Assembly (NCBI GenBank): GCA_002989075.1
Contig: PSQN01000012.1
Coordinates: forward strand, 248,001 to 312,000
Direction of reading: 5' to 3'
Source of the DNA: Arthonia radiata
Taxonomy: Eukaryota; Ascomycota; Arthoniomycetes; Arthoniales; Arthoniaceae
Length of the DNA stretch: 64,000 nucleotides
Within the stretch, counting starts at the first letter, position 1, and each line of letters opens with the position of its first letter. Of this stretch, positions 26,601 through 61,960 are shown in pieces. The notes beneath the pieces were generated by a model. That model did no database searches. It saw only the letters and a program-made list of their open reading frames with translations, and was not told the origin of the DNA. Position numbers and translations under genes: made by a program.

Positions 26601-28247
26601 TCACGTCATCGCCTTCCTCCCCCCATCCGGCAGTGGCGCCTTGAAAAGCACATAAGGCAACTGCCTCCTGTCCGTCCCCGGGAAAAAGCTACTCGTCAGA
26701 TGCAGCTGATTAACGGTGAAGTACAGCATACCATCCTGTCCCACGTTAGCACAGTGCCCTATGGATCACACACCTCGGAGCAGCAGAAAATAGAACCATC
26801 AACTCACCCAACCGACACTCATCGTATCCACCCAATTGATCCTCGGATCCCTTACAAACGTCCGCTGCGTCCCGTTTCCCGGGAAGTAAATCACCACGCT
26901 CTCCTGCTCCGCGTTCCCCGCGTAAATGTACCCGTTACTATCCGTCTCCATCCCATCCGTAACCCCCTTCTCGCCCCGGTTCTGCACACTATTCTGCGCG
27001 AGCAGCTCGCTTACACTATCATGTCTCCTCAACGCTGCGGTGGGGATGGAATACAGATATCGGCCTGCTATCGAGCTGAAGTAGAGGTCCGCGCCGTCTG
27101 CGCCCAGTGCGATGCCGTCAGAACCAAACGGCACGTGCGAGTACGGCAGCATAGCGGGATTACTGGAGTAGAATAGCGGCTCGCCCCACACATACGGCGT
27201 CACCTGCACGAGCGGGCGCACGCGCGGATCGCCGTCGAGGTGCCGCCACGCCTCCCCGCTTGTGAGATCGACGATGATCAGCCCGTTGCGGCCTTCAGTC
27301 GAGGAGTCGGTGATGTACGCGACGCCTTGACTCCCATCGCTGTTGAGACCGCTGAGGCCTGCCGTCCGATCGACCCGCACGTCATTGAGGTAGCTGTCTT
27401 GGTACGCGACGGTAATGGGGAATGTATACGTCCGGGTCACGGTGTCCGTGGCGAGGTCGACTTCGATGAGTTTAGGACCGCCGGGGACGGAGGGCAGCAG
27501 CATTTTTGAAGCGGCGTCGATGGCGCGGCCGGTGTCGAGGATCCAGAGGGTGTTGGCGCTGTCGATGACGACGGACTGGATGCCGATGAGGTAGTTGTCG
27601 TAGTTTGCGGCGGTGGGCGGGGTGGTGGTGAGATTCAGGGCGCCGTTTGGAGGGTAGTTGTACTCGGCGGAGGGGTAGGGGACTTGGGTGCCGTCGGGGA
27701 GGAGCTCGGCGACTTGGTACTTTGTGGGGGTTTGGGGGGTGTTGCTGGTGGGGTTGGTCAGTGGTTTGTAGGGGGTGGGAGACGTGGTCTGGTCTGATCT
27801 GGAGGCGCTCTAGAGCTCTGCTTCATTGTCGCGAGTGCATGGACGACTTGGTCGAGGGGTCGCGGTTGTGTAGGCTGGCTTACGTATTGTTTGGATCAAG
27901 TCCCGCTGGGTAGTTGGAGAACAGCCGCCCCTCTCGAGAGACAGCAACGCCTGGACGTGTGAGCTTGTGCGGTAAGGAAGTACGTTTGAGCTTCGGTATC
28001 GCACCCGTCGGCCATTGATCTATTGCAAACTGTCAGTCGCGCTCTGCTAGTTGCGTGCGTCTGATGCACCGTGTGGATAGGACCGGGAAAGCCTCGCTCT
28101 GGTTTCTACTGCTCAAGCCTACGACATACCATTATACAAGAAGGCAATATCCAAGTCTGGGCCTGATTTGCCAGTATCCGTAAGCAGTTGCTGCTGAGCA
28201 GCTGCCAGCGAGACGATGCTCAGAAATACTGCGCTTAGAAAATGCAT
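26601..28247 (-). CDS. Secreted major royal jelly/Yellow-family protein
   Basis: The family folds as a six-bladed propeller; fungal members are secreted and of mostly unknown role. I rebuild four exons: 28247-28130, 28019-27884, 27744-26808 and 26735-26601 (introns of 110, 139 and 72 bp), giving 441 residues. Exon 1 encodes a signal peptide, MHFLSAVFLSIVSLAAA. Later landmarks are QWPTGAIPKLKRTSLPHKLTRP split for length as QWPTG and RPGVAVS, RLFSNYPAG, TLWILDTGR, GVAYITDSS, FGSDGIALGADGADLYFSS, and the C-terminal exon DGMLYFTVNQLHLTSSFFPG. A stop-codon reading at 26799 is avoided by the last GTGAGT intron, which keeps frame into that conserved tail. All blades seem present, so the protein looks intact. 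Confidence 0.9.
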
Positions 28248-46655: not shown

Positions 46656-49600
46656 TTAAGTTGGCTGCTTTGCGTTTTCCGCGACTTGAGTCGCATCCAG
46701 GGCAAACCCCGGGCTTTCGATGCCTCTGCCAGCCACGCGTCGCTGTATCCTATCTTCTCTACGCAGATAATCGGCACGCCGCTCGAGCGTCGCCTCGCGC
46801 TCCGCACTAGTTTCCTCTCGAGCAGTGAGAATCAGTCGCAGACCCTGATGCAGATTCTCTACATCCTGCGCGAGAGGCACATATGGATATTGGGTATACC
46901 TTCTGACGTTCGTGAGGGCTCGTGCGGTACTGCTGGAGAGCAGACGTTGGTCAATCGTTTCAGATATCGTGACGAGGACCTCGGCACCCTGCTCTGCCAT
47001 GGATGTAGCCGTTTCTAAACACTCAGGATATTTGCCGGTACCAATGTATTGGATGTAGCCGAGCGTACTCAGGTCGAAGTGCAATCTCTGCTCGACTGCA
47101 TCCGAGCCTTCATGCCATACGTTGACTCCAACAGATCTAATCATTGCATTCTGCTCAGCGCCAGCCTTAAGCATACTTCGTAGCACTTGCAGCCACTTAG
47201 ACAGGGCTGCCTGTTCGCCATTGCTTGCAAAGATGACGTTGAGCGCCGTAGCCCCATTGCGGCGATCGTCGCGTTCAGTGACGAGTAGCTCAAGTCGGTC
47301 CACGTACAAGACCAGCAACCTGAGGAATTTCTGCCATGCCGTCTCCTCGTACATCGCAGGAAGAAAGCCGTCAAGATTGTCCTGACGCTGTTTAGTAGCC
47401 TGTTCTGAACTTGCTGTTGACTGTACACTTTGTGGGCTTGCCCCACGCGCCAATGCAGCGGATATGACATCAAAGCACGACTCGCAAGCTTCGTTATTTG
47501 CATTAATGACGTGAAAATGGAGATTACCCTCGATGCCAGCCAGAGCGCTATGGAGTATGTAGTCTGCGGTAGAAGCGTCGGCCGTTGTCAAAGCGTCTGC
47601 TACGTAAAGGATCAAGCCGCGGCTTGCGCAAAGCCCGAGTGTGTCGCAAACAATCCTATTAGAGGCTTGTGAAACGTCGGCAGAATCCAAGAGGCTGATG
47701 ACCCCTCGGATCCTCTGACATGCATCTCCACAACGGAACAGGAAGCATGTGTCGCTATACTCATTCAGACAAATTGACCAGTGTACACTGAGCGGAATCG
47801 GTTCACGAACAACCGATTTGAGCCACCTGCCACCGGTGCGATCGAGGTCCGATACAAGTGTCTTGCACAAATGCAGAGGCATGTCATGGTCCGCTTGGAT
47901 ATAGTCCATAGCCTTTAGAGGCGACAATAGCAGCCCGTTGAACTTGATTCTTTTTAAGGCAACTAGAAGCTGAAAGTACGCCGTAGAGGAGGTAGCGAGT
48001 GCTCTGTTTGCAGACCAATGCGCACACTGCTTGAAAGCTTCTGCACAAGCGGTGCCTTTTGAGAGTTCGCAATAGAAGTCATAGGCCGTGGCGTGCATGA
48101 AGCTGATATATGCGAAGTTCTCGTAATCCTCCAGGCACTCGAAGTCGTGTCTAGCTCGCTCTTGATGTTCGTTCTCGTCGATATCGGAATGGCGCAGATT
48201 TGGTGTAGTGCGAATTTCGAGAAAACCAGAACAACGAGTCAAGATTCGTCGTCTTGTTACCTCACACACGTGGAGTATTGCTGCATTGGACTGTAGACCA
48301 GCCTCGTAATTGATGTGCTCCTGTTGCTCCATGTCTATCAGAGCCACATCAACCACGGTCAACGGATGCAACGAAGCTGATAATAGTGCCATATATCGTA
48401 AGGCTGTTGTTCGATAGATCGGAGAAATTGATTCGAACATGAAAGCGTACATCTCCTTGAATTCTGTGGGCATGAGCCCTACCCTCTGTTGCAGCTGTTC
48501 CCACGAATCTTCGTTGAGCACGCCTTCTTTGACAGAGTTTACGGCAAGGCGTGCCCATAAGAAGACGCCGTCGGCCCGAGACACAATAGTCCTGGTAAGT
48601 TTGACAAGAGGACTGAGACTGTCAGGCTTGGAAGGATTGAACGAGCCGCCACCAGCGTGCAAACTACCCCAAACGTAGTCTTCGATGTCCGACTGTGTCA
48701 AGTCTTGTAATCGAAGCTTGGCATATGGCTCAAATCGAGCCTCGAAGACACGCAACGGACGGCTGCTTACGAGACACCGAACGTGCTCTTGTTGAACAAT
48801 CTCATGCAAGAAGTCAAGCAGTTCTTCGTGCGTGATGCCGTTACCGGTCTCAAATTCGTCTAGGCCGTCCAGAATGATCGTTAGATAGAACCTTTGGAAT
48901 GTTTGGTCCAAGCAACGCTGGAGACATTGTCTGAGATTTCTCTCAGTCCATGCTGGAAGCGGGCCACTGATGTCAGGGAGCACATGCATCGTTAAACGTT
49001 GCGAGGAGCTCAATATAGAATGTAGCAGTGTTCTTAAGAAGCCCAAGATGTTCTTTTGGAGCCTTGATCCGGCGCGCCAGAAGAAAAACGAGCATTTGAT
49101 GTGGCGGGAAGCTCCTGCCCACTGCTCTGAGCGGCGAATGGTCCTTTTGTCGTTGTCAATGTAGCGCATCAAGGTAGATTTGCCGGAGCCGGCTTTGCCA
49201 TTGACGTGGTAGAAACCGTTCCGCGATGTTAGCCATTGGTGGAAATTGCTCCAAGGCGCAGTGCCGCTATCAGACTTGCTGTATATCCACTCAAAGGTCT
49301 GTTTGTACGCATCGCGGACTTCCTCCTGTCGAGCGTGCATTACTGGGAAATATAGGCTATCGAGCACGCGTTTGTGATGCTCCTCTTCAGCTAGCTTCTG
49401 ACGGCCTGCTTGCAATTCCTCTGAGATCTCTCGACGGGTCCTAGCGTGTTCCTGCACGACGAGCGCCCGCGTTTGTTCTGCTTGTTGAACCAAATCATTG
49501 ATCACATCGCCTATCAGACTAGATAAGGATAAGATTTTAGCAGATGATGGCGAGAGATATAGTGAGAAGCACAAAGCATCGAAAGTTACTACGCGAATCA

Positions 49601-50296
49601 ATGGGGCATAGGCAAAAGGCCATTACCTTGATTCACAATGGAAATGAGCATGCAATGGCTTGCTCACCTGATGTTGCTGTGCAGCGAAGAAAAGCCTTCC
49701 AGCTGTTCCTTACTGAGCATTTTGAACCTCTCACTTTGCTCGAATCAGCTTGATATGCAGAACGACCCGTTTCAACTGAAGCATATTTGTAGCTCTGTCG
49801 ATGGGGGATGGTGCTGGAGCGTGGATGTTGGTAGGAAAACAAAGATGCAAAGATGTACGCACCGCTGGTCCACGAGAATGTGATCACGAATGACACTCCT
49901 ATATTCAGACAGCCGTGCTTGTATATCCTCGATACTGTTTCGATTCCACATAGCTTTTACCGCCATCGAAACGACCCTTCGTTTGCGCTTTGCTTCTGTT
50001 GCAGGTATGCTGTATTTGTCCAGTGCCACACACAGTTTTGACGCGACATCGCATGTCTTCGCCGTAATGTCGTAGAGTATTTGATCTTGTTTACCAAGTG
50101 CAAGGGACTCATTCTGGGGACGCAAAGACGTTTTGAGGATATCGTTGGCTTCGATGAAGCTACGCGTGCTCTTGATCACATCATCATTGATGCTGCCCTC
50201 TCTGTATAGCTTATAGCACAGCTTGACGGTGTTGATCCCTAGCTCGGCGACTTGAAGAGCGTTGCATGCCAGGCTGAGGGCAGACACAGGATCCAT
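46656..50296 (-). CDS. NACHT-type STAND (NLR-like) protein
   Basis: Fungal STAND proteins are signal-sensing ATPases, several of which control non-self recognition and cell death. I rebuild three exons: 50296-49859, 49738-49668 and 49518-46656, giving 1,123 residues. The first splice is the least certain. The N-terminal domain MDPVSALSLACNALQVAELG resembles the helical N-terminal domain common in fungal STAND proteins. A coiled-coil-like linker (ARTRREISEELQAGRQKLAE) follows. The NACHT domain shows P-loop NGKAGSGKSTLMRYID, Walker B LTIILDGLDEFE, and a sensor-like LVSSRPLRVFEARF. From about 480 to the end, the 640 residues lack ankyrin, WD40 or TPR repeats that I can recognise; only the helical NACHT-associated part (LRYMALLSASLHPLTVVDVA) is clear. 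The ATPase motifs look intact. Confidence 0.88.
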
Positions 50297-51103: not shown

Positions 51104-52192
51104 TCAACACGGGGTCTGAAGCAGATTCTGAGACTTTGTCTTCGACGTACCTCTGGCGGACGGAACGATGGCTAAAACCTTGATCGAAGCGGGCAGGACT
51201 GATTTGACAGCCGACTCGGAGTTATGCTCAGCGTCAAGAGGTATTCCTAGAAAGTCGAACGTAGTGTGAAAGCTTCTCAATCGAGAAAACCGTTGAAAAC
51301 TTGGTCTGCGCGACTCACGGTGATCGCTAGAAACGCCGAACACGCGAAGGCTCTCCAAAGATCCTGCATGAGGCTCAATGGCGCTAAAGTAAGTTGTTTC
51401 GTGTCTTCTATTGTCATCTGAGTCGTATTCGCGATCCATATGTCGGTATTCCATATTCAGATGCTTCAGAGCCCTAGGGAAACGTATGATCTGCGCCAGC
51501 GCAGCAGGCTCCACCTGACAATGGAGCAACTCTAGCTCTTCAATGGAAGACGGTAGTGAGATAGTTGGGTTGTCGCGCTCAAACTCGTCAAAAAGCTCGC
51601 CATGGTTTTCGTTGCTGGCCCAGAAGCCCTTCAGTGTAAGCTTTCTCAATGTCCCGCTGGCTAGGAAATGTATTCGCTGCTCAAGGTTCCATGGTGCGGG
51701 TGTACATCCATAGAGGATCGAGCATTCTTGTAAGGCATGAATAAATGGCCTTGGCTCCATTCGATCGCTTCGGTCTCTTGTCCAGAATAAGTTCAGGAAC
51801 TTCGCGAAATCTTCCGTCATATCGCCCTCACACTCCAGGCGATCATCACCGTATGGCGTACATGAGATCATATGGAGCTCTTTGAGGTTGGGCACATGAG
51901 GTAAAAGCATGAGGGCATCCGCCTCGCCTCCTTCGTCCTCATACTCAAAGCTCAGGCTTTGAATGCAGCCTGCCAAGTGGGGATCTTGACTGAGTGCTTC
52001 ATTCAACATCAAGGCCTGCCGAGGCGAGCGCAAGTAAGTGTTAAGGAAGAGCAATGGCCTGTATAGGTTGGCGAAGCGTCGACAAGTTTGCATGATGCGC
52101 ATGATGCTTGCCTGCTCCAAATACCCGCTCTTCACGAGACATCGATGCAGCTCCTTTGGCAAGGCTGTAAAGCCCCTTGTATCTATTGACAT
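51104..52192 (-). CDS. F-box/leucine-rich-type protein, copy A
   Basis: The frame is open to 52492, but I start at M101 of that frame (52192): MSIDTRGFTALPKELHRCLV opens a plausible F-box, whereas the preceding 100 residues look like translated leader. The 362-residue product has an F-box-like N-terminus (LPKELHRCL, then IMQTCRRFANLYRPLLF), expected to bind Skp1. Irregular leucine-rich segments follow: LPHVPNLKELHMISC, SSIEELELLHCQVEPAALAQ and FPRALKHLNMEYRHMD. The segment TTYFSAIEPHAGSLESLRVFGV and the block FSRLRSFHTTFDFLG match copy B closely. Probable role: substrate receptor of an SCF ubiquitin ligase (inference). It is head to head with the gene at 53150. Confidence 0.75.
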   Translation of the reverse strand: MSIDTRGFTALPKELHRCLVKSGYLEQASIMRIMQTCRRFANLYRPLLFLNTYLRSPRQALMLNEALSQDPHLAGCIQSLSFEYEDEGGEADALMLLPHVPNLKELHMISCTPYGDDRLECEGDMTEDFAKFLNLFWTRDRSDRMEPRPFIHALQECSILYGCTPAPWNLEQRIHFLASGTLRKLTLKGFWASNENHGELFDEFERDNPTISLPSSIEELELLHCQVEPAALAQIIRFPRALKHLNMEYRHMDREYDSDDNRRHETTYFSAIEPHAGSLESLRVFGVSSDHRESRRPSFQRFSRLRSFHTTFDFLGIPLDAEHNSESAVKSVLPASIKVLAIVPSARGTSKTKSQNLLQTPC

Positions 52193-53149
52193 GGCTATTG
52201 GGAGTGGGATATGGCAAGTAGTCTCGAATTTGTTTTCGAAAAGATGATTTATCAAATATTTTCTAACTCCAATCTGCAGACAACACGCCAGATGCACTAA
52301 CTGGTTAGCTTGGGCGCTTATTCCCGTGCACGGGCCGCATTCGGTGCCAAGCCCAAACTGCGCTCCTGAGGCAAAGCAAAGAATGGTCCACAACTTCGTT
52401 CGGGAGCGCGCGTTCTCTTCCGAGCGCGTGGCCACACACTGCACACGCCTGACTATCCGCCATTTGAACAATGAGTGGCCCTCAATCATCAACGTGGTCC
52501 GGCCAGGCGGCCAGTAGCGTCCTTTCGCATCTCACTTACCGCCAGTCCGCCCTGAGTGCGCCTTGAGTGTGCTAGGATGACCAGCCATTCGGCGACAAAT
52601 CGGAATCCGCGCAGGTTTGATATCAAGCAACGCGGCTTGAGACCAGACTACACCAATCGCCTGCTTTGAGAATGTACATGGTCAAGGCGGCAGCACACGC
52701 CGCAGCTTGTGGAAGCTTGCACGCCTTTAGTCTATAAGACTCAAGCGTACAACGGACTACGAGAAAGCGGAAGAAGCCAAAAAATTACTAAAAATATAAG
52801 GGGGATGAGCTGATCTGCTCATACTATTCAACAGGGCACAACCAGGAGACTGGACGTTCGGAGATGGACGTGGTGCCTCCTAGATGCATCAATGCGGCTG
52901 AGCCATCAAGCGCGCTCACTCCCAGCGTATGGTATAGAAAGATGAAACATGTGCTAGCCGTATAGCTTTTCAATTTGGCTGTAGACTCCAGGCGCGTGAG
53001 AGTGTACAGCATGTTGCGACATATAAGGATGCTACTGCAATGCAAAACCCGTGGTGAAGTGTAGACCCTCTCATCCTTCCTTTCTCTGTTAGAATCGCAC
53101 GCTGAGTGGCATCGGCTGTTGCCTCGTTATCTTCTTTTATCTGTTCGTC
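52193..53149. promoter_or_regulatory. Divergent upstream region between F-box copy A and the GPWLPS gene
   Basis: A 957 bp head-to-head intergenic, architecturally equivalent to the 772 bp between 59151 and 59922. I see no gene and did not find an obvious shared DNA element by eye. Confidence 0.45.
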
Positions 53150-56100
53150 ATGCCTTTTTGTGCGTTGGGTTTGTGTACGGCTGGGCCCGCGCCTTCCTCA
53201 AACGTGCCAGCTACTAGCACTTTCAGCCCGGCTGGACCGTGGCTTCCATCAGTACCAGCAACCTCTCCAAGTGTGCTCCCCTCGAGCGGGGCTTTACCCC
53301 CTGTTGCAGTGGCTCCGTCATCAACTGTAGCTTCATCCACCGCTGCTGCTATCGGCCCACCACCAATAGCTGCCATGCCACCTCCCGCACCTGCAGCGGA
53401 GAAGGGCCAGCCGCCGGTGTTGAAACCATCGGGCATGGGTCCGCCAGGTGTTGGCCCGCCTCCTGGCGGTGACGGCGGCGCCGGGAAACCAGAGGACACC
53501 AAGCCAACTCCCCCGAAGCCCGAACCAAAGCTCGATCCTTCAGAGCCAGATGACAAGCGGACCTCGTCTGCGTGTGACAGGTCAATCACAGCATCTATAT
53601 GTACAACGTCGCTATTTTATGTTGCCCCGACTTTATCCAACCCAGCGGCGTCAACCTCTACTTCAACATCGACAACTTGCAGCACCACCGTCGGCTGCTC
53701 AGTCGTTGATCGAACAGCCACTGTGAAGTCAACAGCATCAGCTGCGGTATCCTCATGCGCACCCATCACCATCCCAATCACTATCATCGACGATGACGAA
53801 GTCCCCGATGACGCCACGGACGGCACCGATGATGACCAAGCCACCGACTTACAGCTCAACAGAAGATCTGTCATCACTAACGGCACCCGATCCTTTGTCC
53901 GAAGAGGCGGGCAAGAGATCAAGCTAAGTCCGCCTAAGAAATGGCAGTATGGGTAAGTCTTGCAAAGCGTCCACAGTATTCTCAAACCTTTCACCTGTCC
54001 ACAAATTCCCCGAGGGTACACTGCGCTCGGATATAGCTCTGAATTTTGTGAACCCCGGCTAAGCGTAGTGGCTACGCGGTCTTGTGTTCACACCTGCTGA
54101 CCCATCACAGGCCTCCTCAATGCGGCTGGAGAGGACCTTATATTGACAAAGCACCAAACCAGCTGATCGGTAAGTTTGAAGCGCCCTTCTCGAAACCGTT
54201 CTTTGGGTCGGCGCACTCTGTGTACAGCTGCGAGATTATGGCTTACGAATGGCCCGGAACGAGTCGCGGTTGCCTACAGAGCTCGCATTTGTCCGGCTCT
54301 AATCATTACGCATTTCAGCCGTGAGGGACTCTGCTAACATGTTTTGTCGGTCCGAAGTATCCTAGAGCCCGCGACTTAGCTAAATTTCAACCTGGCCAGA
54401 ATCCCGGTGGTCCTGCGTATATGTGGCTCACGACGATCAAGAAAAACGACGATGATTGTGACGGAATGTGAGTATGTTCCTTTCTCTCAGCCACCCTTTG
54501 CTGACTTGGGGTAGTCCTTGGGATATTCGACAGGTCGAAGACTCAAAGATAATCACTACTGAGGATGCGGCTGGCCGAACATACATTCATGAAGGTGATG
54601 GTCCGCAGTCAGATGCTTCCGCCGGGGTAAATGTGGACCATGTCTATGAAAGTAAGATTCTTAGGTACTTCTTCAGCGATGATGCGCCCAGCGAAGAGCA
54701 TGATCCGGACTTCAATGATCCCAATACTGCTTGCAATCAATGGCGCAAGTTTTGGGTCCATGACGTCAACACCGAGTCGAAGAACTACCCCATGGGCGGC
54801 CCTGGCGCTCAAACAATGGCCAAATGGTAAGTGTTATCAGAGCACTCACAGGATTTGCCTACGAAACCGGGGTGGCAATGGGTTCGAGCTGTCGAACTTC
54901 CCTATCTCTCCTAACATTCGTGGGCGGAAGAGTTGCGCAGAGACCCAGTTGCTGACCCACGAATCCAGGTTTCGCATGACAACCATACTTCGACTTCTTC
55001 CAGGCGGAACAGAGCCCAGGTGGGCAGACTTTGTAGGCATGGACAAAAATATCAATGGCATGAAAGGAACACTGTTCGAGCGAGACATGCGCAACCTGGA
55101 TCCACAGCCTGATCGGCCATCAAAATTGCCGGTGAGTTTGCTGTATACTTGCAGATTTCATCTTGTGCCAGCTGACTCAGACAAGGCTGATTGGATGATG
55201 GATCTGAATCTCTTGGGTCTTGCGCAACGCGTAATGCGCCTCAAAGAAGTTGCCTCGCGCTTTCGGACAGCAAACGCGCGCATCTACGGCGGCTTCCAGC
55301 GAATTGATGGTATCAAAGGCGACTGTGGACCACCTCCGCATCCAAACTATGCTTCCAAATACTCGACTTGGATGGAGAACTACCTGCAGACTCAAGGTGC
55401 CGCTGTCACATCGGCGTGGAGCTCGATTGTCGAAACTCATTTGCCGGCGTCCACACTCACTACCACGCTCAAAGATAAAGATGGCAAATCTACAGGAGAA
55501 GATACTCACCTGGCCGACCGACTGCACGCTCTGACTGCTGCATATCCTACGCAAAGCCTGACCTTCGACACTGCGGCGTTGCTCACTTGGCCAGCTCAAC
55601 CAGATCCAGCTCAGGCTTTTCCGAGCATAGCCAAGCGTGACGGCAGCGCGACGGCAGCGCCAGCTTGTGCAGCTAGTGCCACTGATGCGCAGGCCACAGC
55701 AGGTATGTACGAAGCAATCATAGCATCATTCTCAGTCACATGGTTACTGCTTATTGACCAATTCCTCCAGGCCCCCCAACCTCAGCACCACCGTCTCCGC
55801 CTTCGCCTCCGCCGTCCTCAAGAACATTAGGTGAGTCGAAATCGTACACAAGCAGGCCATATACTGAGCTGACACGCTTGATCCAAGGACCAGCATCATC
55901 CGTTCCACCGCCGCCACCACCGGAACCATCGCCCACCGATCACTGCAACTACCAGTACGCACTCTTCTTTGACGAGTTCAGTGTCACAGGCAAAGACTTT
56001 GATGACGGCAAATTCAAGAACGGTGACGGGTGAGTGTTTGTTACGGTTGACGTCATGTCTGATCCCACGCTGATAATGTTCTTGCAGGCTCAAAGACGAG

Positions 56101-56262
56101 CTCGGTGGTTGCGGAAAGATCACCCATTGGAGGTTCAGTGGTAACAACGATGTCGGATTTACGGCATCTTGTAACCTGCCGTTCGGGACTAAAGCTTGCG
56201 TTGGCCGTGCTATTGTCAGCGCTGGAGGTAAGGACGCTGGCGGGTGTACCGGTGGCGGTTGA
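53150..56262 (+). CDS. Large Pro/Ser-rich fungal protein with VDHVYE domain and GPWLPS motif
   Basis: A multi-exon gene; the product function is unknown. Exon 1 (53150-53952) encodes an N-terminal STFSPAGPWLPSVPATS motif, a Pro/Ala-rich stretch and Ser/Thr/Cys-rich segments (STSTSTTCSTTVGCSVVDR). Later exons begin at 54111 and 54515; the last introns are clear at 55703-55770, 55831-55887 and 56030-56087. The middle contains PQCGWRGPYIDKAPNQLIG, AGVNVDHVYESKILRYFF and DFVGMDKNINGMKGTLFE, features I associate with a widespread uncharacterised group of fungal secreted proteins. The C-terminal domain DHCNYQYALFFDEFSVTG ... FGTKACVGRAIVSAGG is compact and Cys-containing. No signal peptide is seen at the chosen start, so an upstream exon may be missing. 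The model is provisional across 54.2-54.9 kb. Confidence 0.6.
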
Positions 56263-56621
56263 TCTCCCTGTAGAACTCTACTTGTACATGCTGAATGTTG
56301 TTGTAAGCAAGATCGCTCGGTCCAGAGCGGCTGTCAAGCGTGATGGAAGGTGTATTTGGTGGGAAACAAGTTAGTTTTGAGCCTACTGTCGGCCCTTAGA
56401 CGCTTAACGCTGACATTTCGAAGGAGTAATATTGCCGTTGCAGCAGATCCGTATAGCCGGTAGCCAAGATTATGTGTTATACAGATTTTGCCGTCACCAC
56501 TCGTTTCTCGCACTTGCACTGATGTTCATGCATGCTGTAGTATGTTCACTGTCAGATCTGATCAAATGACTTTGTATGACAGGTCCAGACGCGCCAAGGT
56601 GCGACACCAAGACGAATGCGC
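56263..56621. other. Spacer between the VDHVYE gene and the transposon
   Basis: These 359 bp contain no supported gene; they probably carry the 3' UTR of the preceding gene. The last 8 bases are the left target duplication of the transposon. Confidence 0.45.
56614..56621 (+). repeat. Left target-site duplication GAATGCGC
   Basis: An 8 bp direct repeat, identical to the bases at 56965-56972 and directly abutting the left inverted repeat. Confidence 0.85.
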
Positions 56622-56964
56622 CGGGCTTCGTTCCGCCACACCTCCTTTCTTCTAGGGCCACACCCCTCACCTAAATACCGTCTGTACGCGGAGCCTCAGG
56701 GGATGCCTGCTTCATAAAACATAACCTTTACTGTAAACAAGAGATAGCGACACCTTCCCCTAGAGGGCTATCTTTCTTCTAAAACGTGGGTCGAGCGCGA
56801 ACCTAGGAGGTGCCTATAGAGAGGGTCCCTCTGGAGCGCAGCGTAGGAAGGAGATGCCTTACAGAGGACCTAGGTGACCGTGAGGGCCGGGGGTGGGGAG
56901 AATTTTACGCTGCCAAAAGGGGGTGTGGCCCCAGGAGGAGCGGGGTGTGGCGGAAGAAAGCCCA
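56622..56964. mobile_element. Non-autonomous DNA transposon (MITE), probably hAT superfamily
   Basis: This 343 bp element has 45 bp terminal inverted repeats at 56622-56666 and 56920-56964, about 80% identical with 9 mismatches and no gaps. Both ends contain (c/t)GGGCTT, TTCCGCCACACC and GGCCACACCCC. The perfect 8 bp direct repeat GAATGCGC flanks it at 56614-56621 and 56965-56972. An 8 bp duplication is typical of hAT elements, hence the superfamily call. There is no transposase frame inside; the interior is G-rich on this strand. The intact duplication but diverged ends suggest an old family with a moderately recent insertion. It sits between the two F-box/GPW modules. Confidence 0.85.
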
Positions 56965-56972
56965 GAATGCGC
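56965..56972 (+). repeat. Right target-site duplication GAATGCGC
   Basis: The matching 8 bp copy directly abuts the right inverted repeat of the 343 bp element. Confidence 0.85.
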
Positions 56973-57517
56973 TTTTGCTTTTTGGACGTCTTTACAGCTT
57001 CCCTTACCTACGGTAGAAAAAGCCAGATACCATCATGTTCGAATGCGAAGAGATTGTGAGATGTTTCTTGTGCAGAACGTCAGTGACGCGTCGCTTGTTT
57101 GACGCTTCCTACTGTATGAAAGACGCGGTAAAGCTCGCATGGCGATGTAAGCCCTATGGTGCTTCCGTGGCCCCCCTTCTATTCCTAGTTAGTCTCCATA
57201 GTCATGCGATGCGCTTTGCCCATCTTGGAATTTGTATACAGACCACTTCGTAGTGTTCGGTCAGACAGCGCGCGTTCAAGCCTGTGCTTGTCGCTCCTTC
57301 GAACGACGGACAACTGTTCTCCACCATGGTGCTTGCGAGAAGAGCAAGCATACTTAAAGCAAGAGCTCTCGGTACAGTCGTCTCAATCAATACTGCAGAC
57401 TCCTCTCGAGACTTCTCTTCGCAACAACTGTGGCATACGCACCAGTCTACGACTACCGCATAAGCACTACACGAAATCCACATTGCTTCCTGGATCACAC
57501 CCGCAGTTGTTCAGAAA
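56973..57517. other. Intergenic, upstream of a small gene
   Basis: These 545 bp hold short overlapping frames on both strands with no consistent coding signal. They probably include the promoter of the two-exon gene at 57518. Confidence 0.4.
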
Positions 57518-57811
57518 ATGAGTAAACTTCCTGAACCTGGGGACAGAAGTAAAGACCCTCAATACCATGAGTGAGTGGCGTGCCGAGCCCAGTACAAGCA
57601 CGATATACTTACACTGAACATCAGCGGCACGCTCGGATTTGGCGGAATCTCGCATGCGATCTTGCACAGGCATGGGGAGTCAGTGATAAAGCGCGCCCAG
57701 GAGAAGGTGCATGGTCGCGCCACGGAGCAGAGCTCTTCCACAGAGCCTGCAGCTGGTAGCAGTTCCAATGAGCAAAAGGCCATTACCGAGAAGGGAGAGC
57801 CAAAAAAGTAG
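57518..57811 (+). CDS. Small two-exon gene, unknown 79-residue protein
   Basis: Exon 1 (57518-57570) and exon 2 (57625-57811) join across a 54 bp intron with GTGAGT donor, a CTTACACTGAACATCAG 3' end and consistent phase. The product reads MSKLPEPGDRSKDPQYHDGT, then LGFGGISHAILHRHGESVIK, then a Lys/Glu/Ser-rich polar tail ending in EKGEPKK. It has no signal peptide and no membrane segment. The central Gly/His-containing helix-like block looks conserved, while the tail looks disordered. I do not recognise the family. The strong splice signals and the gene-like N-terminus are the reason for calling it; the unspliced frame would lack a good start. Confidence 0.55.
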
Positions 57812-58277
57812 ATAGCAACGTTATTCGAGTGACAGGGCAGGCTTTAGAGGCTAAACTCCTAGCTTCCGTCGCAACCCAATTATCCGTGGGAAGCTTGGGG
57901 GGGCTGAATGGGAGGAGAAGTGTTACCGAGACATCAGAATGATGAAAATTAGACATGTTCGTTGTGCTGAACGACGGCGCTCTTAGTCGGACAGCTTGCT
58001 TCTGACCCTTGTTGCCCGCAGTGAGCACCCCATACACAGCCAAGCCTTATGCTGCCCCGTGAGAAAGTCGGCATAGCCAACACTAGGTGCGACTCATCCC
58101 GTTCGAGTGATGGCTTAAGATCCTGCAAACAGATGCATGAGTTTGGCTGCGCGCTCTTCTGCCACCCAGTAGACACCAGCAGGGAAGCTTTGTGAAGTGA
58201 GGTCAGTGGGATCCAGAGAAAAAGCCGCGCCTTGTGGATACTAACACTCGGAGCGCGATCAGGCGTGTAGCGTCGTC
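57812..58277. other. Convergent intergenic region
   Basis: These 466 bp lie between the small gene's stop and the stop of F-box copy B. They probably carry both 3' UTRs. Nothing else is seen. Confidence 0.45.
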
Positions 58278-59150
58278 TTACCTGTGCTGCTGCTGCTGCG
58301 GCTGAAAGTCTAGCAGGGCAGTTTCGTCATTGCGTTTTGAGATACATCGCTCAGTCAAAGCCATAGCAATGGCAAAGACTTCAGTACGGAAGCCACTACC
58401 ACCACGTGCGCGCTGCCGTATCCGTCTGAGATCCTCGATCCGAGCACCTCGGCTGGAATAACACAACGATCCTCCAGCGTCACACATCGGGAGTATGACC
58501 ACGTCTTCCGTTAGCGCGGGTACTACCTGGCTCCAATTGTGTTGCCGGGATCCGTCGTGAGTCGGAAGTACAAAGCCCAGGAAGGACGTTGATGTATATA
58601 GATGCCGTAACTTGGGGAAGTGCAGAAACGTAGGCTTATGCACGCTCTCAGGAGAGGTCCACACGCCAAGGACGAGGAGATGTGTGAGAGTGCTTGCTCG
58701 TTTCTCAATGCTCTTGAAGTAGGTCGCGCCGTCTCTGCTGGTCACAAGGTCGGAGCTGAAGCGTCTATTGATCATGTAATATGTCAGGCTGAGCTTCTCC
58801 AGGTTGTCGGTAAATGAAAGAAGTTCACCCAGCGACGAAGCTTCGACTTGACAGAAGCTCAGGTTCAGCTCCTTCAAGCTGCTTCTTTGCGTGATCAACG
58901 GGTGCTGCCGCAATGTATCAGCATACAAAGAATTGTTGTAATCGTCAAGTAAACATTTCTTGATGGTCAGTGCCCTCAGGGTTGGGTGCAGGAAGAACAA
59001 GATCTTCGTTTTGAGATCCCATGGGTACTCGCAGTTGCTGTAGGAGAGCGAACATTGCTCGAGCTTACTCCCTTCGTCAGTGTTCTGCCTCAGACCTCCA
59101 TCACCGAGGGGCCAGAAGACGTCCAAGAGCCTGGCATTCTCGGCCGTCAT
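58278..59150 (-). pseudogene. F-box/leucine-rich-type protein, copy B, lacking its F-box part
   Basis: The open frame is 290 codons. It is clearly a relative of copy A: SSLKELNLSFCQVEASSLGE against SSIEELELLHCQVEPAALAQ, ATYFKSIEKRASTLTHLLVL against TTYFSAIEPHAGSLESLRVF, and FPKLRHLYTSTSFLGF against FSRLRSFHTTFDFLGI. The frame opens at MTAENARLLDVFWPLGDGG, which aligns with the middle of copy A (MTEDFAKFLNLFW). Homology appears to continue just upstream in another frame (LKGMKELV, then a stop, resembling NLKELHM), so the 5' third is degraded or missing and no F-box is found before 59150. It could still yield a short protein; I rate it as probably broken. It is head to head with the gene at 59923, as copy A is with the gene at 53150. 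Confidence 0.6.
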
Positions 59151-59922
59151 GTCGCCAACGCTACTCCACCGCTCGTCGCTCTCAGACGAGCTCCTTCATA
59201 CCTTTGAGCATATAAGACAATACTAGTCCGAGATGGGTCAAGCGCACCAGCCATCACATCCCGTCTGCTTACCCTCATCCTCACATTCTCTGCAGTTCCA
59301 TGCCAATACCTCAATACCTGTGAGATAGCTATATGTATGGAGATCATTCTACGGGGTGAGCCGCGTCTTGTATGCTACATTGACGCGCGGCTACGCTTGC
59401 TCCGCCCCAGCCGCAATATGTCTTCTCTCGTTTCAAGCAAGCGAGCTGTAGTGGAAGCCGTTTCGCAATAGCGCTGAACCACGGCCAATGTACAAGCGCT
59501 GTCCTACACATCCCCCCTTCATCCATGGTTGTAAGAAGCATCGAAGAGGCGCAGCCCGCAAGCTGAGTTATGAAAAGAGTACAGGCGCGTCCGACTTAGT
59601 TTTGGACGTTTAGACGCCTTGACAGTCTTGTGTTGTGTGCTTTGCTGTGCCTCATCTAGACATGACAGCTTCGTAAATCTGCCTGGCACCGCATCCCGGC
59701 GCTTGAACGCTGTTACCATTGGGGTGACAGCCTACCCAAGATTGCGTGAGCAGAATCCTCTTCGAAAACATAAGACGTGGTCATCCCCACACTCAAGCCC
59801 CTTTCGTGCATCTTGATCTCTCCGCATTGCCCAAGCCAACCAATCTCTCGCACAACACCCTGCACTCCCTACAACATTTAGGTTTTATCTCAGTAACATT
59901 TCAACCAAAAGCACCAAAAACC
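59151..59922. promoter_or_regulatory. Divergent upstream region between F-box copy B and the GPWVPS gene
   Basis: This 772 bp region contains the degraded 5' edge of copy B and the promoter and leader of the gene at 59923. The leader ends in an A/C-rich tract (CAACCAAAAGCACCAAAAACC), favourable for translation start in fungi. Confidence 0.45.
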
Positions 59923-60438
59923 ATGTCATCACCCGCCCCATCCGCGACCTTCGCGCCCCTCGGTCCCTGGGTGCCATCCCTGGCGACCTCTCAACTCGCA
60001 GCCGTCCCAACAGAAATACAGACAGACGTCCACCCAATAGACCAGTCTGCTGCGCTAACGTCAACGCTCACTATGCTGTCGACAGCCACTGCGTTTGTGG
60101 AGGCGGCTACTCCGATGATGGCAACGCCTTCACCGGGCTCATACGCCGGCTACTCGCCTGCGTATGGAACACCGGGTGCGACGCCCGTTGTGGTATCGTC
60201 AGCGTATACGCCTGTGTATAGTATTCCTGCGGGGGAGTCGTCTACAAGGGGATCGTCTGGTATGTTGTTGTTGTTACACACGGGTGTGGAAGCTTCGAAC
60301 TGACGTGTTGTAGAAACAAAGGCAACACAGTCGCCAACGGCGAATGACGCCAGTCACCGCTCTTCAATATTTGGGAAGACTATGATTGCTTTTTTAATCA
60401 TTCTTCCGTTCCTCCATTTGGGGCCATTGGGTGTGTGA
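59923..60438 (+). CDS. Small GPWVPS-motif protein with C-terminal membrane segment
   Basis: Two exons, 59923-60259 and 60314-60438 (54 bp intron, GTATGT to TTGTAG), give 153 residues. The start MSSPAPSATFAPLGPWVPSL is preceded by an A-rich leader. The motif TFAPLGPWVPSLATS matches TFSPAGPWLPSVPATS at the N-terminus of the gene at 53150. The middle is Ser/Thr/Ala/Pro-rich with a Tyr-Pro-Gly stretch (SPGSYAGYSPAYGTPGATP). Exon 2 adds a polar stretch, then GKTMIAFLIILPFLHLGPLG, a hydrophobic C-terminal segment. With no signal peptide, a tail-anchored topology is the simplest reading; a GPI signal would need an N-terminal signal that I do not see. Function is unknown. Confidence 0.65.
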
Positions 60439-60781: not shown

Positions 60782-61960
60782 TCAATGTTCTTCGTCAACG
60801 CTTTTCACCCTGAATCCCTCCACAGGTCTCATCACCACCCTGAAGGGCGTGATCTCCGCTATGCGCTGTCTCTCACAAACCGTGAAATCCTCGACTGTCG
60901 TCGGTACCACTCCACTCCAGTTCGTTTCCTGTACATATTTAGCGCCCAGACAGTAATCCATATCCCATGAAACCAAAATCCCCGCGGTTAATTCGAGTAG
61001 CCGCAGTTTCGCAAAGTCGTGGAAGCTGATGGCGTCGTAGGTTACGCGGATGATGTTGCAAACCTTGAGATCTTGCAGCGTGTCTCGGGGTCGTGTGATG
61101 GTTTCGAAGTGTATCTTACCCTCTCCCGGTCCGCGAAACTGGGGACTTTCATGGCCAATTTCAACCCACTCGCTGCCGCGTTGCCACACAGGGTGCACAA
61201 GATGCAATTTTACCAGCGCTCGAGGCAGACGCAGAATCTCACGTGAGACGAATGAGGGCATTTCAACCTCAGTGCATACGAGTTCGCTAATGTTGCTCGT
61301 GCCGAAGACCTTGTCGTGAGGCATGCCGTTATTGTCCAGCATCCGTTTCGTATCATAGAAGTCCAACTTGGCGCTGCGCAGCTCGAGAGAAGTCAATTTG
61401 GGATGCAGAAAAAATTGCTGCTGTTCCCAAATGTTCAAGGCACGTGGTCTCCCGCAAAAGCTGAGGGTACAAGACAGTAGCTCGGCGAGCACGCCTGCCT
61501 TGAACTTGCGACCAGAGAGCCTATCAGACGGGCCTCTAGGTTGGATGAAGAGGTCGCGGAGTTCTTGGCGAAATCTATCTGGCGAGATGGCAAGGCTGCT
61601 CATATCGAGCTGCGAGCGTTCTGAAGAGATTTTCAAATGCTTTACCTGCGAGAACAAGGGAATAATCCTGACAGCGTCATTTTCAGCGCTCACTGGGATT
61701 GGATAGTCCAAAATCAAAGACTGCACAGAAAGCCCAAGTACGGCATGCCCATCGAGTGTGAGAGTCCCTAGCAGGGCATTGCTCTGCACTGGCGACTTCA
61801 GCACCACCTCGTCGAAGACACGCTTGCGAAATTGACTCGCCAGGTGTCGGCATGTTCGCGTCAAGCTTGCCAGAGTAGCTTGACCAAGATCAAAGTTGTC
61901 AGCAAGAATGATGAGGAGCTCGTAGGGAAGGCTCAAGAGGCCTTTGTCGGTGCTGTTCAT
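60782..61960 (-). CDS. F-box/leucine-rich-type protein, copy C
   Basis: A 392-residue single-exon protein. The N-terminal F-box is clear: LLSLPYELLIILADNF, then LASLTRTCRHLASQFRKRVF. Weak leucine-rich segments follow: LFSQVKHLKISSERSQLD, FFLHPKLTSLELRSAKLDFY and LRLPRALVKLHLVHPVW. The C-terminal module IHFETITRPRDTLQDLKVCN and WSGVVPTTVEDFTVCERQ corresponds to ATYFKSIEKRASTLTHLLVL and WSQVVPALTEDVVILPMC in copy B, so the three genes are related but well diverged. Probable SCF substrate receptor (inference from the F-box). Intact as far as visible. Confidence 0.78.
   Translation of the reverse strand: MNSTDKGLLSLPYELLIILADNFDLGQATLASLTRTCRHLASQFRKRVFDEVVLKSPVQSNALLGTLTLDGHAVLGLSVQSLILDYPIPVSAENDAVRIIPLFSQVKHLKISSERSQLDMSSLAISPDRFRQELRDLFIQPRGPSDRLSGRKFKAGVLAELLSCTLSFCGRPRALNIWEQQQFFLHPKLTSLELRSAKLDFYDTKRMLDNNGMPHDKVFGTSNISELVCTEVEMPSFVSREILRLPRALVKLHLVHPVWQRGSEWVEIGHESPQFRGPGEGKIHFETITRPRDTLQDLKVCNIIRVTYDAISFHDFAKLRLLELTAGILVSWDMDYCLGAKYVQETNWSGVVPTTVEDFTVCERQRIAEITPFRVVMRPVEGFRVKSVDEEH

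Follow-up and report, generated by a model that had tools for sequence, protein, structure and literature searches.

We assign a probability of about 0.5 to the reading that two head-to-head gene pairs in Arthonia radiata, each consisting of an F-box/LRR gene or its paralogue and a plus-strand partner with a GPWxPS motif, go back to one old duplication of a two-gene segment, in which the second copy was reduced in both genes and the pairing was inherited by position. The arguments for this reading are that the two minus-strand genes are each other's closest relatives, that the two pairs have matching orientation, and that the neighbors share a motif.

Organization of the locus

The window, by which we mean the whole 64,000-nucleotide stretch that was analyzed, is C10:248001-312000 of a genome of 33.5 Mb in 16 contigs. 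Its genes contain introns, and a fungal-specific transcription-factor domain is present among them. The features discussed below are as follows.

51104-52192, minus strand: F1, predicted F-box/LRR gene, single-exon ORF, 362 aa
52193-53149: divergent intergenic region of module 1, 957 bp, with a possible 5' exon of GPW1 inside (52864 or 52892 to 52926)
53150-56262, plus strand: GPW1, nine-exon hand-made model, 772 aa
53219-53251, plus strand: motif TFSPAGPWLPS of GPW1
57518-57811, plus strand: small ORF of 79 aa that separates module 1 from module 2, interrupted by a 54-bp intron at 57571-57624
58278-59150, minus strand: F2, paralogue of F1 with no counterpart of its F-box end; the open frame extends to 59195
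59151-59922: divergent intergenic region of module 2, 772 bp
59512-59565, minus strand: 18 codons that may be left over from the N-terminal part missing in F2, 9/18 identical to F1 residues 72-89
59923-60438, plus strand: GPW2, putative gene, 153 aa, with one 54-bp intron at 60260-60313
59947-59979, plus strand: motif TFAPLGPWVPS of GPW2
60782-61960, minus strand: F3, third paralogue, 392 aa, with no GPW partner and with F4 as its closest relative

A preliminary description of this DNA had reported that F1 and F2 each stand head to head with a plus-strand ORF (starting at 53150 and 59923), at spacings of 957 bp in module 1 and 772 bp in module 2; both the arrangement and the distances, measured from ATG to ATG, were confirmed. 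The two modules also share the same orientation, which we count in favor of joint duplication. About 1.5 kb from F1 lies a minus-strand ORF of 988 aa (46656-49622) with matches to NPHP3_N, NACHT, and DUF7791, a combination that we take to be that of fungal NLR-like proteins. Farther away, an ORF at 26799-27809 on the minus strand matches the Pfam family of major royal jelly proteins (E 3.4e-26).

Relationships among the F-box/LRR paralogues

The paralogy of F1 and F2 that had been proposed holds firmly, as 71/219 residues are identical in a local alignment with a Smith-Waterman score of 280, compared to a maximum of 55 in 300 shuffles. When F1 was searched against the genome, four places were found at E up to 0.01, namely F1 itself, F2 (1.4e-31), a gene on contig C16 that we call F4 (6.5e-22), and F3 (1.9e-11), so the suggested third paralogue is indeed a relative of F1, but a more distant one (25% identity). 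A search with F3 added a weak fifth place on contig C12 (E 0.018), which is also an F-box-like match. In the alignment of the four paralogues, F1 and F2 are 32% identical and F3 and F4 36%, while the remaining four pairs range from 24% to 27%. The unrooted maximum-likelihood tree of these four rows has a sole inner branch that separates F1 and F2 from F3 and F4 with support of 100/99. F1 and F2 are thus shown to be the closest pair to each other among the four paralogues, and the tree and the identities together ally F3, despite its position next to F2, with the F4 gene of contig C16.

Several observations bear on whether F1 has an N-terminal F-box. Its match to the Pfam F-box-like family has an E value of 0.018 and 15.3 bits, which is below the curated cut-off of 24.3 bits, and two of the four paralogues match this family at E up to 1 (best 0.0056). 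The structural model of F1 has helices at residues 5-50, in a block with pLDDT of 55-71, and the C-terminal part contains the leucine-rich repeats by which FBXL proteins are recognized. The model of F1 looks like an F-box/LRR protein of the kind seen in SCF receptor structures: its predicted fold is like those of FBXL2, FBXL17, SKP2, and COI1, but identity to them is just 11-16% and the Foldseek TM-scores are low (0.33-0.42), with other LRR proteins, such as NLRP3 (Z 13.8) and ribonuclease inhibitor (Z 13.4), following close behind in Z. Judging from this fold, F1 is most likely an ordinary SCF substrate receptor that would bind Skp1 through its F-box and a substrate through its LRR domain. 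Across the genome there are at least 69 F-box-like matches at E up to 0.01, and none of the four paralogues is among them. Some of these matches form local groups that may be tandem duplicates (C3:358639-363309, C9:2269820-2271626, and C12:265533-267814). With so many matches, some of them grouped locally, clusters of F-box copies, whether or not their members are related, look ordinary in this genome.

F2 had also been labeled as an F-box-type gene, and here we disagree, because its open frame contains no F-box. Read from stop to stop, the F2 ORF begins to match F1 at residue 114 of the latter, and counted from the first ATG of F2 the match begins at residue 125; a counterpart of F1 residues 1-113, the F-box end, is missing from the frame. 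Unlike FBXL-type SCF receptors, F2 therefore lacks the F-box end. As the likeness to F1 extends about 11 codons 5' of the first ATG of F2 up to a stop, truncation is suggested. The possible remnant at 59512-59565 scores 44, one point above the best of 200 dinucleotide shuffles (43), but 2 of 60 random pieces of the window, possibly overlapping F1 or F3, also reach 44.

The partner proteins

GPW1 is a putative gene model made by hand from the sequence alone. All of its introns are GT-AG, and it consists of a Pro/Ser/Thr-rich N-terminal region with the GPWLPS motif followed by a large region without known relatives. There was no Pfam match for the whole model, a 327-aa part of it had no match in NCBIfam or among PDB sequences, and a second genomic copy of this part or of its last 90 aa was not found. 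A scan of prokaryote genomes with the same 327 aa produced 215 stretches fitting the pattern and no relatives, and single-sequence AlphaFold modeling of one part of GPW1 gave a pLDDT of 31, too low to be of use. The frame of GPW1 is open 5' of the ATG across a strongly hydrophobic stretch, and the protein may start earlier than 53150, which would add this stretch and narrow the divergent gap. Two options for a 5' exon were constructed by hand (52892-52926 or 52864-52926), either of which would give GPW1 a signal-peptide-like start. Seen alongside the protein's cysteines and dibasic sites, this putative hydrophobic start suggests that GPW1 is secreted.

GPW2 is much smaller, with a GPWVPS motif at its N-terminal end and a hydrophobic tail at its C-terminal end; its N terminus is not hydrophobic. 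Pfam gave no match for it, and a search of its first exon against its own genome found a sole other place, on contig C12, with an E value of 1.33 and two internal stops. Codon usage gives GPW2 no support as a coding gene (-0.044, standard error 0.030). On the plain codon score, F1 (0.097), F3 (0.094), F2 (0.069), and GPW1 (0.037) were counted as above the mean of off-frame readings (mean -0.079, maximum 0.084) and GPW2 (-0.064) was not, whereas the synonymous score sets no gene of the five apart from the off-frame spread (mean -0.009, standard deviation 0.030). Codon bias is weak in this genome and decides little here. That GPW2 is a gene is our inference.

The shared GPWxPS motif

As had been reported, both plus-strand products carry the sequence TF[SA]PxGPW[LV]PS near the N terminus, and in both predicted proteins it falls within the first 35 residues. 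The Smith-Waterman score of GPW1 and GPW2 is 106, whereas 1000 local shuffles, in which composition is kept within 10-residue blocks, averaged 63 and did not exceed 98. For the first 60 and the first 45 residues alone the score is 70, and one local shuffle in 1000 got as high. The sequences past the motif score 56, which 247 of the local and 20 of the full shuffles equaled or exceeded (1000 of each). Alignment of the two proteins, which the preliminary description had named as a test, thus succeeds for an N-terminal stretch of about 30 residues, but beyond it the likeness is not above the level of local shuffles, and once every gene pair of the window is allowed for, the alignment by itself would not settle the matter. 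At the DNA level, the comparison of module 1 with module 2 gave blastn matches at chance level only (best E 1.7). In a set of 258 ORFs with a length of 100 aa or more, taken from the window and four other stretches, the best ungapped non-self match of GPW2 is the first exon of GPW1 (65, with the next at 46). Viewed from the GPW1 side, the GPW2 ORF (69) ranks fourth after ORFs scoring 80, 76, and 71, with two more (68 and 68) just below.

The strict motif pattern occurs at three sites on both strands of the 33.5 Mb, two of them at this locus, and the reversed control has none; the third site sits in an ORF for a glycosyl hydrolase of family 2 (GH2). The looser pattern FxPxGPW has 6 sites, compared to 4 in the control, and the pattern GPW[x]P[x] has 12, compared to 3, with the TFxPx context present in the two window sites only. 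If sites of the looser motif fell as often as in the control, another one on the same strand within 7 kb would have a p value of about 8e-4; this and other p values for the motif are post hoc, since the two sequences themselves served to define it. A literature search for GPWLPS and GPWVPS returned nothing related, judged by title.

Occurrence of the pairing within the genome

A GPW neighbor is present for two of the four paralogues (F1 and F2, both in this one locus) and absent for F3 and F4, so it is not the case that most paralogues keep such a partner within the genome. The upstream neighbor of F3 is a zinc-type dehydrogenase on the same strand. For F4, the distance to the end of the nearest upstream minus-strand ORF of at least 130 aa is about 3.8 kb, and the ORFs just past it presumably belong to an amino-acid permease. 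There is no strict GPW site on contig C16, where F4 lies, nor on the contigs C3, C9, and C12 that bear the groups of F-box-like matches. If genes were ordered at random, roughly every second one would have a divergent neighbor upstream, which weighs against joint duplication, as does the finding that intron positions differ between GPW1 and GPW2. Bidirectional promoters of divergent gene pairs have been described in Fusarium (PMC7012866). The two head-to-head pairs here are like such fungal pairs in having gaps under 1 kb, but they differ from those described in that they are known from sequence alone and that the likeness between them consists of one gene and a short motif in the other. In the literature on F-box families and divergent pairs, nothing was found on a pairing of F-box and GPWxPS genes, judged from listings.

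Origin of the two modules

That a two-gene unit was duplicated had been proposed from the start, and we favor this proposal with the reservations that the likeness of the GPW proteins is confined to the N-terminal stretch and that the modules have no DNA similarity. The ancestral segment would have contained an F-box/LRR gene and a divergent gene whose Pro/Ser/Thr-rich product was probably secreted or bound to a membrane. It would have been copied once, long ago, within this locus, if a single event accounts for both genes, and the copies would then have diverged almost past recognition. Module 1 presumably retained both full genes, while in module 2 the F-box gene probably lost its F-box end and the partner came to consist of the N-terminal motif and a hydrophobic tail, if loss indeed ran in this direction. 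With F2 lacking the F-box end and GPW2 reduced to motif and tail, module 2 looks like a decayed or repurposed remnant. Joint duplication followed by reduction explains at once why F1 and F2 are so close, why both modules face the same way, and why the motif is shared, and the head-to-head pairing would then be an inherited position rather than a sign that the products act together.

A serious rival, if a less probable one, is that the F-box/LRR gene alone was duplicated and that GPW1 and GPW2 are unrelated proteins whose Pro/Ser-rich N termini have an 11-residue motif in common by chance or convergence. This would explain why past the motif their alignment stays within the range of local shuffles and why the modules lack DNA similarity, and it agrees with the occurrence of the strict motif in an unrelated GH2 ORF, with the three other ORFs that outscore GPW2 against GPW1, and with a looser pattern that barely exceeds its control; the groups of F-box-like matches on contigs without a strict GPW site indicate, moreover, that clustering can occur without a partner. 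However, the G-P-W core is not low complexity, the two same-strand sites are less than 7 kb apart (with the post hoc p value given above), and both are N-terminal and adjoin F1 and F2 rather than F3 or F4.

The preliminary description had raised the idea of a conserved functional pair of receptor and partner, which the data do not support, given an F2 without F-box and a partner in only two of the four paralogues. In its fullest form, GPWxPS would be a docking or degradation signal for the LRR domain of F1 and F2, and a shared promoter would co-express receptor and client. We consider this unlikely, though it fits the receptor-like fold predicted for F1, the motif's place in a Pro/Ser-rich and presumably flexible N terminus, and the fact that the motif alone is clearly common to the partners while the remainder differs, as would be expected of a binding peptide. 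The missing F-box of F2 counts against the pair in module 2, two of the four paralogues have no such partner, and GPW1 may enter the secretory pathway if the 5' exon model is right, which would take it beyond a cytosolic receptor. More speculative still, and very improbable in our view, is the scenario in which GPWxPS is a dedicated recognition tag. The F-box/LRR receptor and its client would then have evolved together as a cassette of two divergent genes, of which duplication produced a decoy version, with the F-box-less F2 protecting or sequestering a tail-anchored GPW2 and F1 degrading GPW1.

The evidence stops short of identifying clients by gene order; an old duplication of the ordinary kind agrees with it, and the motif in common is suggestive but short. 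To our knowledge, the client is unknown for most fungal F-box proteins; if a receptor gene and the gene of its client did lie side by side and were duplicated jointly, clients might be read from the order of genes.
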